51,976 bases of DNA from Acidobacteriota bacterium (GTDB lineage: Bacteria > Acidobacteriota > Terriglobia > Terriglobales > Acidobacteriaceae): contig JAJXZT010000056.1 in the NCBI GenBank assembly GCA_021779935.1, positions 1 through 51,976 on the forward strand, read 5' to 3'. Shown here one piece after another: positions 8,829-14,989 of this stretch (position 1 is its first letter; each line of letters starts with the position of its first letter). Under the pieces are notes generated by a model. That model was not told the DNA's origin and searched no databases. It saw only the letters and a program-made list of their open reading frames with translations. Both the position numbers and the translations under genes were made by a program.

Positions 8829-9332
8829 CCGGGGCGGATTCGCCACCAAGCCGCGAATCCTACCCGCGGCGCAATTTTCTCGCGAGCGGGCCGTTCCCAG
8901 GGGGCGGCCCATTCGCCGTTTCTTTCCCTTACCTCTCCTTCCCGCGTCTCGTTCGTGCCATTCCTGCACGGCGCTCATAGATTGGCATGTGTTAATCGAT
9001 TGATTGCGTGAGACTTGCCGCATATCACCGAAAGTGTGCATTTTGCTGGGATTTTTTGTTCCTGCCAGAACAGTCTTCTATAATGCCCCTGCTAACGGAA
9101 CCCGCCGAACCTCGTCCAAATGATTGCAGGGACAAGCGGTTCAGTCCGGACTGGTCACGTGTCCAGGAGTGAACGCCCTGCGATTCCAAGGTCGGCTCCG
9201 GCCGCGCAAGTTGTCGGCTGTGGGCGCTCAGGGTGCGCGGTGATGCCAGCGCAGACGGTAGCGGTCCCGATTTCGATGGGCACTCGAGCAATGGGTCGAA
9301 GCGGTTCAAAGGACACTTCCCCCTGGGGTCTT
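8829..9332. other. Intergenic region between L9 and the sigma factor
   Basis: About 500 bases without a convincing gene. An inverted repeat GGGCCG/CGGCCC at 8888-8910, followed by a pyrimidine-rich stretch, may terminate the L9 transcript. The promoter at 9056-9084 lies in the middle. The frame of the sigma factor stays open leftwards to 9120, so part of 9120-9332 could be coding if an upstream start (9243, 9276 or 9291) is used. Confidence 0.6.
9056..9084 (+). promoter_or_regulatory. Sigma-70-type promoter of the sigma/anti-sigma operon
   Basis: TTGTTC (9056-9061) and a perfect TATAAT (9079-9084) are separated by 17 bases. Transcription would start near 9091, leaving a leader of about 240 bases if translation begins at 9333. 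It is the best promoter-like sequence ahead of the sigma factor operon and suggests housekeeping expression rather than only autoregulation. Confidence 0.65.
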
Positions 9333-9929
9333 ATGGTTGGGCAAAGCCCGAACCGGATCAACGACGCTGACTTGATTCGCGAGGCGCAACACGGCAATCG
9401 TGCTGCGTTCGAAGAATTGGTTCGTCAGTATGATCAGGCCGTGCTTCGCCTGGCGCTTCACCTGACCGGGTCCGAGCAGGACGCCAAGGATGTCTACCAG
9501 GACGCATTTCTCAAGGCTTATCGAAACCTCGGCAGTTTCCGCTTTGAGTGTTCGTTCTATACCTGGATCTACCGAATCGTGACCAATTTGTGCCTCGACC
9601 ATCTGCGCCGGCGGCAGGTGCGCAAGGAAGATGCGCCCGTCGTCTACGACGAGAACGGCGTGGAGTTCAGCATCCTCGACCAGGTGGCCGATACGCGCGC
9701 CGGGGCCAGTCCGGAACGCGACTTGATGCGCCGCGAACTGGGAGCACGCATCGCGCGCGCCCTGCAGAAATTGACGCCGCGCGAGCGCATGGTCTTTGAG
9801 ATGAAGCATTACCAGGGACTCAAGCTGAGGACCATCGGCGAGGCCCTGAATACGACGGAAGAGACGGCCAAGAACACTCTCTTCCGCGCGACGCAGAAAT
9901 TGCGCGCCGCGCTGGCCGATATGCGATGA
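9333..9929 (+). CDS. ECF-type RNA polymerase sigma factor (RpoE-like)
   Basis: A 198-residue sigma-70 family protein with only regions 2 and 4. Region 2 includes FEELVRQYDQAVLRLALHL, DVYQDAFLKAYRNL and the -10 recognition block FYTWIYRIVTNLCLDHLRR. Region 4 includes LTPRERMVFEMKHYQGL and the helix-turn-helix TIGEALNTTEETAKNTLFRA. It should direct RNA polymerase to a stress regulon. No start has a strong Shine-Dalgarno sequence. The ATG at 9333 is closest to the sigma domain; upstream starts would add up to 70 residues of poor complexity. The next gene is a zinc-finger anti-sigma factor, 55 bases away, so the pair is very probably a regulator and its antagonist. Confidence 0.9.
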   Translation: MVGQSPNRINDADLIREAQHGNRAAFEELVRQYDQAVLRLALHLTGSEQDAKDVYQDAFLKAYRNLGSFRFECSFYTWIYRIVTNLCLDHLRRRQVRKEDAPVVYDENGVEFSILDQVADTRAGASPERDLMRRELGARIARALQKLTPRERMVFEMKHYQGLKLRTIGEALNTTEETAKNTLFRATQKLRAALADMR

Positions 9930-9984
9930 AGCAAGTCCCGGCGGAGAAGACCGGGAAAAGATTTGGGCCGAAAGAAGGCTTGTT

Positions 9985-10911
9985 ATGAACTGCGAATGGG
10001 TACGGCAAAACGTAGCGCTGTATCTCTACGGCGAACTGCCGGACGATCAGCGCCATGAATTCGAGCAGCACGCCAACCGTTGCGGCGCCTGCGCCTCGGA
10101 AGTCGCCGAGATGCGCCGCTTCCACGAGGAAATGAGCGTGCTCCCGGTGGCGGAAGTCTCGCCCAGCCTGCTGGCCGCCGCGCGCATGCAATTGCAGGAA
10201 GCGCTGGAGACGGCGGAGCAGACGCGCGGATGGCGGCGTTTCGTTTTCGATCCCATGAGTTACCTGCGCTCGGCGCGCTTCTCGCCTGCCCTGGCCGCGG
10301 CCCTGCTGATCGTCGGCTTTGCCGGCGGAGTCGGCACCACCTACCAGATTGCCCGCACCGGCATGATCGTCACTCCCGAGCGCCACACCACCGCCGAGGC
10401 ATCCATCGCCGGCGTGCGCAACATCATCCAGGAACCCGGCAGCGACAAGGTAAAGATCCAGTACGACCGCATGTTGCCGGAGACGGTGCAGGGTTCCATC
10501 AACGATCCCAATATCCAGAACCTGCTGATCATGGCCGCGCGCAGCAATTACAACTCGGGCGTGCGCATGGATTCCGTCGACCTGCTGAAGCAGAAGCCCG
10601 ACGATGCCCGGGTTCGCGAGAGCCTGATTTTTTCGCTGCGTTATGACAGCAACCCCGGCGTCCGGTTGAAGGCGCTGGAAGCGCTCGGCGGATACGTGAA
10701 GCAGGACATCCGCGTGCGCAATGCCATGCTGGAAGCGCTGCTCAACGACAACAACCCCGGCGTCCGCGCCGGAGCCCTGCGCGCCCTGGAACAGGTGCGT
10801 GGCGATACCAGTGTCCGCCAGGCTTTGCAGATGCTGGCCAAGGAAGATCCGAACGAGTACATCCGCAACGAATCGCGGCGCGTGCTCGCCTCCATGCCGC
10901 AGATCGACTAA
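9985..10911 (+). CDS. Membrane anti-sigma factor: zf-HC2 domain, TM helix, C-terminal HEAT repeats
   Basis: A 308-residue protein. The N terminus is a zinc anti-sigma domain with His29-x3-Cys33-x2-Cys36 (HANRCGAC) and Cys3 as likely fourth ligand, facing the cytoplasm and expected to hold the upstream sigma factor. A single hydrophobic helix lies at about 98-122 (ALAAALLIVGFAGG). The outer part, about residues 170-305, contains four HEAT-like helical repeats (for example NPGVRLKALEALG and NPGVRAGALRALE). HEAT repeats on the periplasmic side are unusual for this family and look like a protein-binding sensor. It sits between the sigma gene and two exported-protein genes. The domain order is seen; the signalling role is inferred. 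Confidence 0.88.
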   Translation: MNCEWVRQNVALYLYGELPDDQRHEFEQHANRCGACASEVAEMRRFHEEMSVLPVAEVSPSLLAAARMQLQEALETAEQTRGWRRFVFDPMSYLRSARFSPALAAALLIVGFAGGVGTTYQIARTGMIVTPERHTTAEASIAGVRNIIQEPGSDKVKIQYDRMLPETVQGSINDPNIQNLLIMAARSNYNSGVRMDSVDLLKQKPDDARVRESLIFSLRYDSNPGVRLKALEALGGYVKQDIRVRNAMLEALLNDNNPGVRAGALRALEQVRGDTSVRQALQMLAKEDPNEYIRNESRRVLASMPQID

Positions 10912-10946
10912 GGCGGTTGGAAGATAAACAGGCAGTCTGGGAGAAG

Positions 10947-12185
10947 ATGTTGAAGATCACGGTACAACCCGAAGGCGCTCAGTCCGGCTGGAACCCGCGC
11001 GGGGTGGCACGCTCCATGGGGCTGCTTCTGGCCTTCGCCATGGCGATTCCCGCCTGGGCGCAGCAGACGCGAACCTATCGCGAAGGCAACTCCTGGGTGG
11101 AAGAGATTACCGGCACTCTGCCTCCGGCGCCCGTGTTCCGCGTCGACACCGCCATCGGCAACATCTCGGTTGAAACCGGCGGACAGGAAATCCGCTACAC
11201 CGTGCGCATGCGTTCCAGCCGCGACAATGAGCAGGAAGCGCGCCGCGCCCTCTCTGCCTTGCGGGTCAGCGCCCGCCGCGTCGGCCAGTTCTCCACGCTG
11301 GAAGCCGTGTGGACCGATCGCCAGTACGTGCGCCGCTTCAGCGCGGATTTCACACTGCAGGTTCCTCCCGGAGTTGGATTTATACATATCGATACAATGG
11401 GCGGCAGCATCACGGTCAGCGGAGCTTCCGCGCGGCTTGACCTCGGAACCATGGCCGGCAACATCACCGTCGGAACGGCGCAAGGATCGGTCAATGCCCA
11501 CACCCTCGGCGGCATCGTCAACATCGGCAACGCCGAATCCGGCCTGTTGATCAAGAGCGGCGGCGGAGATATCACGGTGGGCAACGCTGGCAAGCGCGTT
11601 GAAATCTACACTCCCGGCGGCAATGTCAACGTCAACAGCATGGGCTCGGGATACATCCAGACCGGCGCGGGCAGTGTGAGGGTCAACCATTCCTCCGGCG
11701 ACATCAACGTCAAGACGGCCGGCGGCTTCGTGAATCTTGGCGACATGCAGGGAAGGGTTGCCATTGAGAACGGCGGCGGCAACATCCGCATCGGCAGTTG
11801 CCGCGGCAACGTTTCCGCCTCCACTACCGGTGGAAATATCGATCTTTGGAAACTCTACCGCGGAGCGCAGGTGCAGACCGGCACCGGCTCCATCACCATT
11901 GAATTTCTCGGCGGGCGCGGCTCGTTTGGCGAGTCCTACGTCCGCACCGCCGCCGGCGACGTGGTTGTCTATCTCAACGGCGCCACTCCCGTCACCGTCC
12001 ACGCCGTAAGTGAAATGGCGTCCGGACACGGCATTAAATCGGATTTCCCGCAACTCCGCATTTCAACGCAGGGCGGGGATTTTGGGCCCAAGACAGTCTA
12101 TGCAGACGGTACTTTGAACGGCGGCGGACCAGCACTTCAGGTCCGCACCACGATCGGGCAGATTGAATTCCGTCGAGCACGATAG
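10947..12185 (+). CDS. Exported DUF4097 family beta-repeat protein
   Basis: A protein of about 412 residues with an N-terminal signal sequence (GLLLAFAMAIPAWAQ, cleavage after AWA). The rest is a DUF4097-type repeat of short beta strands separated by GG turns, such as AGNITVG, GGDITVG, GGNVNVN, SGDINVK and GGNIRIG, expected to fold into a beta solenoid. No catalytic motif is visible. The ATG at 10947 has GGGAG just upstream; a TTG at 10917 would add 10 residues. It begins right behind the anti-sigma gene and ends 10 bases before the PDZ gene, so all four genes look like one operon. Bacterial DUF4097 genes often sit near envelope-stress regulators; a role in sensing or surface protection is only inference. 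Confidence 0.82.
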   Translation: MLKITVQPEGAQSGWNPRGVARSMGLLLAFAMAIPAWAQQTRTYREGNSWVEEITGTLPPAPVFRVDTAIGNISVETGGQEIRYTVRMRSSRDNEQEARRALSALRVSARRVGQFSTLEAVWTDRQYVRRFSADFTLQVPPGVGFIHIDTMGGSITVSGASARLDLGTMAGNITVGTAQGSVNAHTLGGIVNIGNAESGLLIKSGGGDITVGNAGKRVEIYTPGGNVNVNSMGSGYIQTGAGSVRVNHSSGDINVKTAGGFVNLGDMQGRVAIENGGGNIRIGSCRGNVSASTTGGNIDLWKLYRGAQVQTGTGSITIEFLGGRGSFGESYVRTAAGDVVVYLNGATPVTVHAVSEMASGHGIKSDFPQLRISTQGGDFGPKTVYADGTLNGGGPALQVRTTIGQIEFRRAR

Positions 12186-12195
12186 GAGAACGGTC

Positions 12196-13461
12196 ATGAT
12201 TCGAAGAATTCTAGTTTGCTTGGTTCTGGTGGCCGGTGCGACGGCAGGAACCGCCCTCGCCGCGGACGCGGCTGCCTATCCGCAGCAGGAACCGGGAGCG
12301 AGTTGGGTTGTGATGGGCCCGCAGCACGGCGCCTATCTCGGCGTCTACACCCGCGACGTTACCGCCGCAAGTGTTTCTGCCCTCAAGTTAAAGGAAGACA
12401 CTGGCGTCGAAATCACCATGGTCGACCAGGACGCCCCGGCCGGCAAGGCCGGTCTGCGCGAACACGACGTCATCCTGAGCTACAACGGCGACCGCGTGGA
12501 AGGCGAAGAGGAACTTCGCCGCATGGTCCGCGAAACTCCTCCGGGACGCACCGTGACGCTCGGCATCAGCCGTGATGGCGCACCGCTTACCGTACACGTC
12601 ACTCTCGGTGACCGCGCCGAACTGGCCAAGCTCATGATCAAGAAGGGCATGCGTTTTGAAGAGCCAGCCATGGCAATGCCGCCGATGGCTCCCATGGCCC
12701 CCATGCCCCCGATGGCCCTCGACGTTCCCGGCTTCAACGTCGTGGTCAACAGCTCCGACCGCAGCGGACTGCTGGTTGAAAACCTCACGCCGCAGTTGGC
12801 CGAATACTTCGGTGTCAAGGGTGGCGCCGGCGGAATCCTTGTTCGCTCCGTCCAGCGTGGCAGCCCCGCCGAAACCGCGGGCTTCAAGGCCGGCGACGTT
12901 GTTATCAGCCTCGCCAAGGAAAAGGTCGCGGATATCAACGACTGGATTCGCATCGCCCGTCGCCATTCCGGGGAAGTGCCGGTCAGCGTTGTTCGCGCCA
13001 AGCGCGTACACGTCCTCAAGCTCAAACTCCCGGATCACACCCGCGGAGAAATGATCACTCCCGAAGAGCTGCGCATGGAAATGGAGAAGCTCGGTCCTCA
13101 GTTCCAGATGATCGCCCAGCAGATGCAGGCACAGCGGGCGAATCTGGAGCACGCACGGCTGGAGGCTCTCAACGCCGTGCGCGCCAACGAGGAACAGATT
13201 CACCGTGCCATGGAGCTCGATCAGCAGAAGCTCAGCCAGCAGGTGGACAAGCAGACGGCGGAGAAGATCAAGGCGGAAATGAAGGCGCATAAAGCCGAAC
13301 TCGACCAGGCGCGGCAGGAAGCTCTCAACCAGGTGCGTGCCAACCAGGCTGAAATCCAGCGCGCCATGAAGCTCAACAGCGAAAAGATGCGTCGGGAAAT
13401 GGAAAAGCAGATGAAGGAATTGAATAAAGCTCTGAAAGAGATCCGTTACGACGAGAACTAG
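12196..13461 (+). CDS. Exported protein with two PDZ domains and a duplicated C-terminal coiled coil
   Basis: A 421-residue secreted or periplasmic protein. The signal peptide is MIRRILVCLVLVAGATAG..ALAA. PDZ1 is at about 45-140 (GAYLGVYTRD, DAPAGKAGLREHDVILSYNGDRV). A Met/Pro/Ala linker (MPPMAPMAPMPPMA) follows. PDZ2 is at about 195-275 (GGILVRSVQRGSPAETAGFKAGDVV). The end, about 295-421, is a charged coiled coil built from a duplicated 34-residue unit (EALNAVRANEEQIHRAM and EALNQVRANQAEIQRAM). No trypsin-like protease domain is present, so it is not a DegS/HtrA protease; it may be an adaptor recognising C termini of misfolded proteins. ATAGGAGAA precedes the ATG at 12196. Last gene of the sigma operon, with a terminator 20 bases downstream. 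Confidence 0.88.
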   Translation: MIRRILVCLVLVAGATAGTALAADAAAYPQQEPGASWVVMGPQHGAYLGVYTRDVTAASVSALKLKEDTGVEITMVDQDAPAGKAGLREHDVILSYNGDRVEGEEELRRMVRETPPGRTVTLGISRDGAPLTVHVTLGDRAELAKLMIKKGMRFEEPAMAMPPMAPMAPMPPMALDVPGFNVVVNSSDRSGLLVENLTPQLAEYFGVKGGAGGILVRSVQRGSPAETAGFKAGDVVISLAKEKVADINDWIRIARRHSGEVPVSVVRAKRVHVLKLKLPDHTRGEMITPEELRMEMEKLGPQFQMIAQQMQAQRANLEHARLEALNAVRANEEQIHRAMELDQQKLSQQVDKQTAEKIKAEMKAHKAELDQARQEALNQVRANQAEIQRAMKLNSEKMRREMEKQMKELNKALKEIRYDEN

Positions 13462-13481
13462 GTAGTACTCTGGATCGACGG

Positions 13482-13506
13482 CGCGGCCACGGGGTCGCGT
13501 CTTTTT
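13482..13506 (+). terminator. Rho-independent terminator of the sigma/PDZ operon
   Basis: Stem CGCGGCC (13482-13488) and GGTCGCG (13493-13499) with one G-T pair and loop ACGG, followed by TCTTTTT. It lies between the convergent PDZ and diguanylate cyclase genes. Confidence 0.7.
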
Positions 13507-13507
13507 A

Positions 13508-14989
13508 TTATTGCTCCGAAACCACGGAGGCTGTCCCCGAGGCGCATTCCACGCGGTTCCGGCCAGACTGCTTCGCCGCGTAGAGAGCGTCGTCCGCAGC
13601 CTGCACCAGCAGGTCGCGCGTGCGGCCATTTGTCGGGAATTCCGACACTCCTATGCTGATCGTGATCGACCGCGGCACTTCCGGGAACTGGTGTGCCTCC
13701 ACCGCGCGTAGCAGCTTGGTAGCCACCGCCGCCGCGCTTGGCAATTGCGTCGCCGGCAGAATGATTGCGAACTCCTCGCCGCCATACCGGCACACCACGT
13801 CCACTTTGCGCAGTTGGCGCATGAACACCGACGACACCTGGCGCAGCACTTCGTCTCCTGACATGTGGCCAAATTCGTCGTTCACGTTCTTGAAGTGGTC
13901 GATGTCGATCATCAACATCGACACCATGCCGCCATAGCGCGATGCGCGCGTGATCTCCTCGATCAGCCTCGACTCGAAATACCGCCGGTTGAAGATGCCC
14001 GTCAATCCATCGAGATAGGCCAGTTGCCGCACGCGGTCGACGAATTGAGTGTTCTGTACGGCCGTCGCCAGGATGTCCGCCACTGACTCCAGTACCTGCA
14101 CGTCATTCGGTGGAAATGCGTTGATCTCGTCGCTGACGCACACCATCATGCCGAGATTCAGCCCGAAGGAAACCAGCGGCAGGCAGACCTCCGATTGCGC
14201 ACCGGCGAAACACGGTGAAGGGCACTCTATTGGACCATACTGCAATTTGCCCCCGGCGGAAGTGGTATACCCGCAGCGTCCCGCACCGGCCAGCAATTCG
14301 TCTTCTTCCAGCTTTCCAGTGAGTGTCCCGTGTTGCGCGCGCAGCACCAGGTTGCCGTCTGCGTCGCGCAGGAACACGGCCACATGCCGCGCCGGGAATG
14401 AGTGGGGAATTTGCTGGCAGAATTCCTGCAACAGCTCGCGCACGTCCTTCTCGACGGTCGTCTGCTTGGCGATTGCGTTCAGCGCCTCCAGTTGCGCCGC
14501 TCGCCGCTGCACCAGCGAATATAACTTTGCGTTCTGGATGCCGATCGAGGCCTGCGCCGCAAACAGCGTCAGCAGATCGATCGTTTCCTCCTCGAAGGAA
14601 TTCGTTTCGTCGATCTGGAAATCCAACACCCCGACGACCTTGTCCTGCGCCATCAGCGGGATCGCCAGTTCGCTCTTTGTCCCCGCCACGCCGGGAATGT
14701 AACGCGCATCCTTCTCCACGTCCGGAACGTAAACCGGACGCTTCAGCCGAGCGGCTGTTCCGGTAATTCCTTGTCCAAAGGGAATGGTATGTCGCGTTCC
14801 GCTGTCGCGCGGTCCAAAGTAAGAACGCACCTTGAGCTCGCGGGTAGCGTCATCCAGCAGCAGGATGGAGCCGTTGCGCAGGCGGAAGTAGTCGCGTGCA
14901 ATCGCCAGGATCTGGTTCAGGACCTCGTCCAGATCGAATGTCGACAGCACCGCGTTACACGCATCGTAAAGTATTGCGATTCGTTGCAT
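13508..14989 (-). CDS. Diguanylate cyclase with two GAF domains
   Basis: A 493-residue cytosolic protein making the second messenger c-di-GMP from two GTP. An N-terminal GAF domain spans about 20-160 (LRNGSILLLDD, PFGQGITGTAARLKRPVYVPDV, LAIPLMAQDKVVGVLDFQ). A second GAF domain lies at about 180-320. The GGDEF domain, about 330-485, has an intact active site GGEEF at 403-407. The inhibitory I-site RKVD lies five residues before GGEEF, so product feedback is expected. DGLTGIFNRRYFE marks the domain start. No EAL domain. The ligand of the GAF domains is unknown. It is convergent with the sigma operon and 45 bases downstream of a small membrane protein gene on the same strand. Confidence 0.94.
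   Translation of the reverse strand: MQRIAILYDACNAVLSTFDLDEVLNQILAIARDYFRLRNGSILLLDDATRELKVRSYFGPRDSGTRHTIPFGQGITGTAARLKRPVYVPDVEKDARYIPGVAGTKSELAIPLMAQDKVVGVLDFQIDETNSFEEETIDLLTLFAAQASIGIQNAKLYSLVQRRAAQLEALNAIAKQTTVEKDVRELLQEFCQQIPHSFPARHVAVFLRDADGNLVLRAQHGTLTGKLEEDELLAGAGRCGYTTSAGGKLQYGPIECPSPCFAGAQSEVCLPLVSFGLNLGMMVCVSDEINAFPPNDVQVLESVADILATAVQNTQFVDRVRQLAYLDGLTGIFNRRYFESRLIEEITRASRYGGMVSMLMIDIDHFKNVNDEFGHMSGDEVLRQVSSVFMRQLRKVDVVCRYGGEEFAIILPATQLPSAAAVATKLLRAVEAHQFPEVPRSITISIGVSEFPTNGRTRDLLVQAADDALYAAKQSGRNRVECASGTASVVSEQ

Follow-up and report, generated by a model that had tools for sequence, protein, structure and literature searches.

What is sensed by an operon in which a sigma factor and its anti-sigma factor are followed by genes for two apparently exported proteins? 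The question is raised by four co-directional genes at positions 9243-13461 (+ strand) of contig JAJXZT010000056.1 from an Acidobacteriota bacterium (assembly GCA_021779935.1; Terriglobales, Acidobacteriaceae), a stretch of 51,976 nucleotides that we call the window. An original prediction, made from the letters alone, had described their products as an extracytoplasmic function (ECF) sigma factor, a zf-HC2 anti-sigma factor with a transmembrane (TM) helix and HEAT repeats, a DUF4097 repeat protein and a protein with two PDZ domains, and Pfam agrees on all four, DUF4097 falling just under its cut-off. By gene order, the four genes are one old, conserved unit; it is very probably autoregulated by its own sigma factor, and it probably acts as a switch that senses trouble in the cell envelope.

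The order sigma, HEAT anti-sigma, DUF4097, PDZ was found in all 74 named Terriglobia loci with enough flanking sequence, which bears out the expected co-occurrence of the four families. These loci come from the best 80 of 122 relatives, found by the anti-sigma factor alone; contig ends truncate the other six, and what is left of them agrees with the order. The query was built from eight close four-gene sequences and leans to the window's own kind, and none of the 74 complete loci is of a PDZ-only type. In a second collection, the anti-sigma factor was matched at 1e-5 in 50 of 61 genomes, the window's own included, some matches being short. We fetched 45 of the 49 other loci, leaving out the weak G002, G037, G038 and G056, and in 31 of the 45 the complete set of four occurs in the same order; 24 of these belong to the window's family, which contributed 34 loci, and 7 to other families. 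The remaining ones comprise nine with sigma, anti-sigma and PDZ, two with DUF4097 but no PDZ, one with neither exported gene (L056), one cut after the anti-sigma gene by a contig end (L060) and one doubtful case (L075). The gene order is thus ancient rather than local. Across a sample of the whole phylum, the anti-sigma factor was matched at 1e-12 in 25 of 119 genomes, among them 11 of the 11 from the window's family: by this measure it is far from universal, and the switch is found mainly in Terriglobia.

Could the four genes be chance neighbours under independent regulation? Gaps between them are moderate in relatives (medians 76, 73 and 52 bases), so that co-translation is not obvious; in the window they are 55, 35 and 10 bases, taking ATG 10947 as the start of the DUF4097 gene (TTG 10917 being an alternative) and ATG 12196 as that of the PDZ gene. 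Separate internal promoters and terminators had been named as evidence that would speak against an operon. Between the sigma and PDZ genes no internal ECF-like promoter occurs in any of the 74 loci (internal sigma-70 promoters were not searched for), and a terminator within the gaps occurs in one; our scan of the window found no + strand terminator-like site in the gaps among the four genes. Together with the constant order and with a tree of 52 rows that needs three changes of architecture against 18.4 in shuffles, these observations already contradict independent regulation, which we find hardly credible.

How is the unit transcribed? A TTGTTC-17-TATAAT promoter had been proposed, and the boxes are present at 9056-9084, although TTGTTC matches TTGACA at only three of six positions and a consensus scan did not flag the pair. 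As the sole promoter it must be rejected, the main control element having been missed: an ECF promoter, conserved in relatives, begins five bases after the TATAAT box. Its motif, TGCTHAC-N16/17-CGTCYA, occurs with at most one mismatch in 108 of 118 regions upstream of the sigma gene (89 exact), against 0.35 in shuffled sequences and none on the opposite strand, and the spacer is 16 bases long in 105 of the 108. The 118 regions include some repeats, as the named and other loci come partly from the same genomes. The triplet AAC is reported in the -35 of two thirds of the ECF promoter examples given in PMC4598750. Because the motif precedes the sigma gene so regularly, the operon is very probably autoregulated by its own sigma factor. 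In 81 of the 108 regions a TATAAT box stands no more than 16 bases ahead of the ECF -35, and in 2318 control windows it never does. Thus, a basal sigma-70-type promoter probably adjoins the autoregulated ECF promoter, its box keeping expression at a low level.

Does the same motif govern other genes? The 4.49 Mb genome holds three exact sites: one at the operon, one upstream of a gene for an M1-type aminopeptidase with a signal peptide, and one upstream of a gene for a secreted protein of 110 residues. Since a reversed-pattern control gave four sites in the same genome, these counts alone prove nothing. The 37 genomes of family f1 hold 57 exact sites, 19 of them at the operon, against 26 for the reversed pattern. 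Recurrence is more telling: 22 of the 41 non-operon exact sites examined precede members of five recurrent families, namely a small secreted protein (11), PadR (4), DUF2911 (3), a LolA-like protein (2) and a further, probably exported family (2). The examined set covers the sites outside five genomes of family f2 (G038, G039, G045, G047 and G048). PadR, DUF2911 and peptidase S55 pass their Pfam cut-offs in one member each, while the target names LolA-like, M1, M13, M16 and MacB-like are our own readings of the sequences.

The small secreted family is the most recurrent member of the candidate regulon, its copy in the window's own genome being the 110-residue protein at L080:4190-4519 (contig C3); it shows weak similarity, under cut-off, to DUF2911 and CsgH. 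We re-tested it in 23 of 25 matched genes (L246 and L256 were left out): a site with zero to two mismatches precedes 12 of the 23, where shuffles give 1.0 and the other strand gives none. Five of these sites are exact and came from the motif scan itself, and are therefore not independent; six sites with one mismatch are independent, with a shuffle expectation of 0.05. The promoter site starts 155 to 513 bases ahead of the matched gene. The family had no match at 1e-6 in six genomes of a clade that lacks DUF4097 at the locus (G008, G012, G016, G017, G019 and G020). A shared motif upstream of envelope genes had been suggested as a check, and we did find it before genes for exported proteins. Together with the PadR regulators, these targets fit an envelope regulon, and a promoter shared by a sigma gene and its targets, the mark of ECF autoregulation, is present here as judged from sequence.

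Two observations on the targets deserve mention. PadR-type regulators and, by eye, a MacB-like permease begin soon after exact sites in L111, L113, L132, L134 and L119, hinting that the regulon may have a PadR/permease branch. In L130 (genome G022), an exact promoter site lies upstream of another ECF-like sigma gene, and a sigma cascade is possible in that genome.

The product of the first gene matches Sigma70 r2 (8.7e-20) and r4_2 (7.3e-13) in Pfam and scores 127.4 bits against the ECF profile TIGR02937 (cut-off 42.9), which places it among the ECF (group 4) sigma factors; among the best 25 of 121 matches listed, no equivalog model reached its cut-off. Orthologues in loci L032-L055 are 74-87% identical. 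Many relatives share an MPA-type start in frame in their sigma genes, which makes ATG 9243 (MPAQTVAV...) the probable start here and those at 9120 or 9333 less likely. The resulting N-terminal extension (9243-9332) opens with MPA[QDE] in those relatives.

The second gene encodes an anti-sigma factor with zf-HC2 at residues 3-37 (1e-8, over cut-off) and HEAT_2 at residues 217-302 (2.1e-16). The predicted zinc ligands C3, H29, C33 and C36 are invariant in the 27 aligned sequences, giving the HxxxCxxC motif plus fourth ligand by which the zinc anti-sigma domain is defined (PMC4598750). Profile searches matched PDB 3hug at residues 12-60 (E 8.3e-4) and alphaRep HEAT structures. The AlphaFold2 model (mean predicted local distance difference test score, pLDDT, 81.4) comprises a helical zinc domain, helices at 60-87 and 101-125, strands at 140-149 and 156-163 that form a beta-hairpin, eight HEAT helices at 175-302 and a short tail. 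A fold search with it returned mainly HEAT- and ARM-type repeat proteins among the 50 matches listed. We take helix 101-125 as the TM segment, from the sequence and the modelled helix together. It is followed by a linker (125-136) that is variable in the alignment and of low confidence in the model. The predicted layout therefore has the zinc domain inside and the beta-hairpin and HEAT scaffold outside, with exported partners encoded next.

Both partners appear to be exported, each with a signal peptide called by eye, that of the DUF4097 protein probably ending near AWA/QQ. The DUF4097 match (1.6e-4) reaches 21.6 bits, the gathering score being 22.9, and there is a further profile match (E 0.0099) to PDB 4qrk, a structure cited as an example of Toastrack (PMC11237479); a right-handed beta-helix of the DUF4097 type would be the fold expected of such a protein. 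The last protein has two PDZ stretches (Pfam 3.4e-23), and its AlphaFold2 model (pLDDT 83.0) shows two PDZ domains and one helix spanning 289-420; Foldseek matched the model to DegQ, DegP and MucD. We found no protease domain in it: HtrA profiles match only the PDZ part (236-332 and 239-428), and the trypsin-like domain that precedes PDZ in HtrA/Deg proteases is lacking.

How old is each part of this arrangement? We built a quick tree of sigma plus anti-sigma from 52 of the 57 available rows (L037, L060, L072, L075 and L076 were left out), in which 18 of 49 inner branches stay open. The architecture requires three changes on it, one for DUF4097 and two for PDZ, and none of 200 shuffles was as low. 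A clade of 13 rows (support 100) lacks DUF4097 at the locus, and one of its rows also lacks PDZ. In L269-L274 no PDZ gene was found within about 3-4 kb downstream; the group with DUF4097 only forms one side of a branch with support 45, and the placement of L068, L268 and L270 is unsure. We chose to root the tree on L272-L274 (families f34 and f49), the most diverged rows, and the direction of the history depends on that choice. Rooted in this way, the tree can be read as an oldest unit of sigma, anti-sigma and DUF4097 to which PDZ was added once, after which one clade dropped DUF4097 and kept PDZ. On this evidence, the sigma switch itself was retained among relatives, and its exported attachments came and went. 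Two groups speak against a mechanism that always needs the PDZ protein: in deep relatives DUF4097 occurs with no PDZ gene, and in another clade PDZ occurs with no DUF4097 gene at the locus. That this second clade is wholly devoid of DUF4097 must be rejected, as relatives of the family occur elsewhere in nine of ten clade genomes. One of its genomes, G017, carries the locus L056 with neither exported gene 3' of the anti-sigma gene.

Does the HEAT domain bind the exported proteins, as had been supposed? We compared domain distances over 74 rows (2414 pairs) by partial correlation. Distances of the HEAT region track those of DUF4097, PDZ2 and PDZ1 (partial r 0.33, 0.32 and 0.26) more closely than those of its own cytoplasmic domain (0.19), and the cytoplasmic part gives 0.11, 0.17 and -0.11 with the same three. 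This is no more than suggestive of binding of HEAT to DUF4097, to the PDZ protein or to both: a pair with no obvious reason to be coupled, the PDZ tail and the TM linker, reaches the same level (0.34).

We propose, as rather probable, an autoregulated envelope-stress sigma switch of an RseA/RseB-like kind: exported partners would dock on the HEAT domain, and resident proteases would probably complete the release. The sequence gives strong support for a basal -10 box that probably keeps the operon on at a low level, for an adjoining ECF promoter through which its own sigma factor amplifies it, and for the same motif driving genes for exported proteins. In a resting cell, the HEAT scaffold would be bound by the DUF4097 protein, the tandem-PDZ protein or both, in a role like that of RseB. 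Unfolded or unassembled envelope proteins would occupy the PDZ domains or the solenoid and leave the anti-sigma factor exposed. A resident HtrA-type protease would then probably cut it in the variable stalk next to the membrane, RseP would cut after that, and the sigma factor would be freed. As they are made from the same autoregulated operon, the exported partners would rise along with the sigma factor and reset the switch.

Several points weigh against this proposal. The promoter motif is weaker in the DUF4097-less clade, with one to four mismatches in its ten loci. In family f1, the exact sites outside the operon are only modestly above the control (38 against 26), so that any single target may be a chance match and the recurrent families alone are secure. 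PDZ is absent from deep relatives and DUF4097 from one clade, and L056 has neither at the locus; hence no single exported partner is essential. Contact is not needed for correlations of the size we observed, since DUF4097 and PDZ2 reach 0.35 with each other and the tail-linker pair comes close; the comparison has no exported control from outside the operon, and exported domains might just share rates, so that this sign of contact is weak. Finally, the HtrA and RseP families are unlinked to the operon, and each of the 14 control genomes has matches to both, passing the cut-off in 4 genomes for HtrA and in 9 for RseP.

The proteases bear on an alternative in which none is needed. Here the PDZ protein or the solenoid would bind HEAT, and the arrival of a client would free the sigma factor through a change of conformation passed across the membrane; the original prediction had put forward such a release, with no need for a DegS-type protease. 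The PDZ protein indeed has no protease domain, HEAT distances do track DUF4097 and PDZ2, and the anti-sigma factor ends in [EQDN]-[IMFLV]-[DNEQY] in 94 of 112 distinct sequences, with P fourth from the end in 89, a possible ligand. The premise that no such protease is available has to be abandoned, as the genome encodes an RseP homologue over its curated cut-off (C28:224609), a DegP-type HtrA over cut-off (C28:264227) and a shorter HtrA (C57:49580); given how widespread these families are in the controls, their presence does nothing beyond removing that premise. The variable, low-confidence stalk looks cleavable, and a single TM helix is a poor conduit for a purely conformational signal. We consider release without a protease unlikely.

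Alternatively, the DUF4097 and PDZ proteins may be outputs, an envelope chaperone or scaffold co-transcribed with its own sigma factor, while HEAT senses something else directly. The dispensability of each partner in evolution agrees with this, as does a weakly DUF4097-like exported protein (19 bits, cut-off 22.9) encoded behind a motif site elsewhere, in L120, where an output would be expected. The fixed order in the 74 testable loci and the tracking of the HEAT region by the partners speak for sensors, although outputs that feed back on the switch would fit both. We regard pure outputs as possible, if on the doubtful side.

The protein ends suggest yet another device. Among 100 distinct PDZ proteins (read-through-stop sequences dropped and repeats merged), 52 end in [DE][IF], or 18 of 52 clusters at 60% identity, while shifts of 1-15 residues give at most 5 of 100 (3 of 52); the wider [DE][IFLMVY] fits 56 of 100 ends (20 of 52 clusters), and shifting it never gives more than 23 of 100 (6 of 52), a maximum seen at shift 14. 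The residues that precede the [DE][IF] end differ widely. The tail of the anti-sigma factor or that of the PDZ protein could be a PDZ ligand, and the PDZ protein might be a C-terminal-tail device: its own [DE]-[IF]-COOH, present in many species, would sit in its PDZ domains, or would switch on an HtrA protease once clients have displaced it. In several lineages this tail is reduced or absent, and a close relative, L032, ends in QQMQ; because the window's own PDZ protein ends in YDEN, we keep this device as a rival only, and an improbable one. In four related loci, L161, L166, L176 and L189, the anti-sigma factor ends in NIY; three of the four also encode a PDZ protein with an aromatic end (EY or EF), so the two tails are possibly matched in this group.

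A bolder reading would make HEAT a scaffold sensor whose exported subunits can be exchanged: the solenoid would be the ancestral sensor, a PDZ client-trap would have been added once, and one lineage would then have dropped the solenoid. The trap would read C-terminal tails, its own [DE]-[IF]-COOH, where present, serving as a built-in competitor, and would signal through HEAT instead of a protease of its own. We offer this reading as speculative and, as it stands, unlikely.

Table 1. Positions of the promoters, genes and terminator-like element of the locus in the window
Feature	Position	Strand	Detail
Sigma-70-type basal promoter	9056-9084	+	TTGTTC 9056-9061, 17-base spacer, TATAAT 9079-9084, read directly
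Putative ECF promoter	9090-9118	+	-35 TGCTAAC 9090-9096, 16-base spacer, -10 CGTCCA 9113-9118
ECF sigma factor gene	9243-9929	+	Pfam and profile matches; core conserved from about 9333 on, preceded by an N-terminal extension at 9243-9332 (MPAQTVAV..)
Anti-sigma gene	9985-10911	+	Zinc anti-sigma domain, one TM helix, beta-hairpin, HEAT repeats, short conserved tail (PQID here)
DUF4097 (Toastrack) repeat protein gene, predicted exported	10947-12185	+	DUF4097 match just under cut-off
Tandem-PDZ protein gene, predicted exported, long C-terminal helix	12196-13461	+	Pfam, AlphaFold2, Foldseek
Terminator-like hairpin and T run	13480-13501	+	9 pairs, 7 G-C, tail TTTTTATTAT

The terminator that had been proposed behind the operon is present as a hairpin and T run (Table 1), but the call is weak, with 12 terminator-like sites in 7 kb against 6.1 in shuffles. 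Of 68 named relative loci, a simple rule finds one within 150 bases 3' of the PDZ gene in no more than 8, so that it is not a conserved feature. Past the operon lies a convergent gene with a GGDEF-like domain (13508-14989, - strand), and upstream of the operon are ribosomal protein genes of the rpsF-rpsR-rplI type, both by-eye calls.

In our literature search, no paper joined DUF4097, an anti-sigma factor and PDZ, although a classification of ECF sigma factors may already list a group that covers this one. The closest published idea that we found places a linked sigma factor in the gene context of Toastrack (PMC11237479). The sole paper combining HEAT repeat, anti-sigma factor and extracytoplasmic function, a genome paper, does not describe this system in its available part (PMC3174227). 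Judged mostly from search listings, no paper on an envelope-stress sigma system of Acidobacteriota turned up; these bacteria, which abound in many soils, are difficult to grow in culture (PMC3174227). The operon, its promoter motif and the candidate targets described here are open to immediate testing. If the partners are sensors, the operon shows how a sigma/anti-sigma pair can stay constant as its sensory subunits are exchanged, and it offers a PDZ sensor detached from its protease.

Among known systems, the Pseudomonas AlgU-MucA-MucB-MucC-MucD operon also encodes a sigma factor, an anti-sigma factor, an exported regulator and, last, a PDZ protein. Our model of the last protein matches the MucD structure 8k2y over 96 columns; MucD, however, is an HtrA protease, whereas the protein here has PDZ domains and helices only. 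To our knowledge, RsiW of B. subtilis has neither a HEAT domain nor an exported DUF4097 or PDZ partner. The SigW-RsiW pair resembles ours in its transmembrane zinc anti-sigma factor, which is subject to regulated proteolysis there (PMC4598750). LiaFSR and PSP-type operons likewise place a Toastrack/DUF4097 protein beside a transcriptional switch. Toastrack is argued to be intracellular in PMC11237479, and PDZ or anti-sigma factors do not appear in its main text; unlike in those operons, the DUF4097 protein here appears to be exported and sits with a HEAT anti-sigma factor. The closest parallel in logic is E. coli RpoE-RseA-RseB, with the RseA/RseB/DegS/RseP model of sigma release as outlined in PMC8103513: it too has an autoregulated ECF sigma factor, a membrane anti-sigma factor, an exported partner encoded in the operon and PDZ-based sensing. 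The parts are different. RseA or MucB/RseB Pfam domains had no match in the four proteins at E 0.1, so that by domain content none of them is an RseA or RseB; instead, the anti-sigma factor here carries a zinc domain and HEAT repeats, and its partners are of the Toastrack type and of a tandem-PDZ type without a protease domain.

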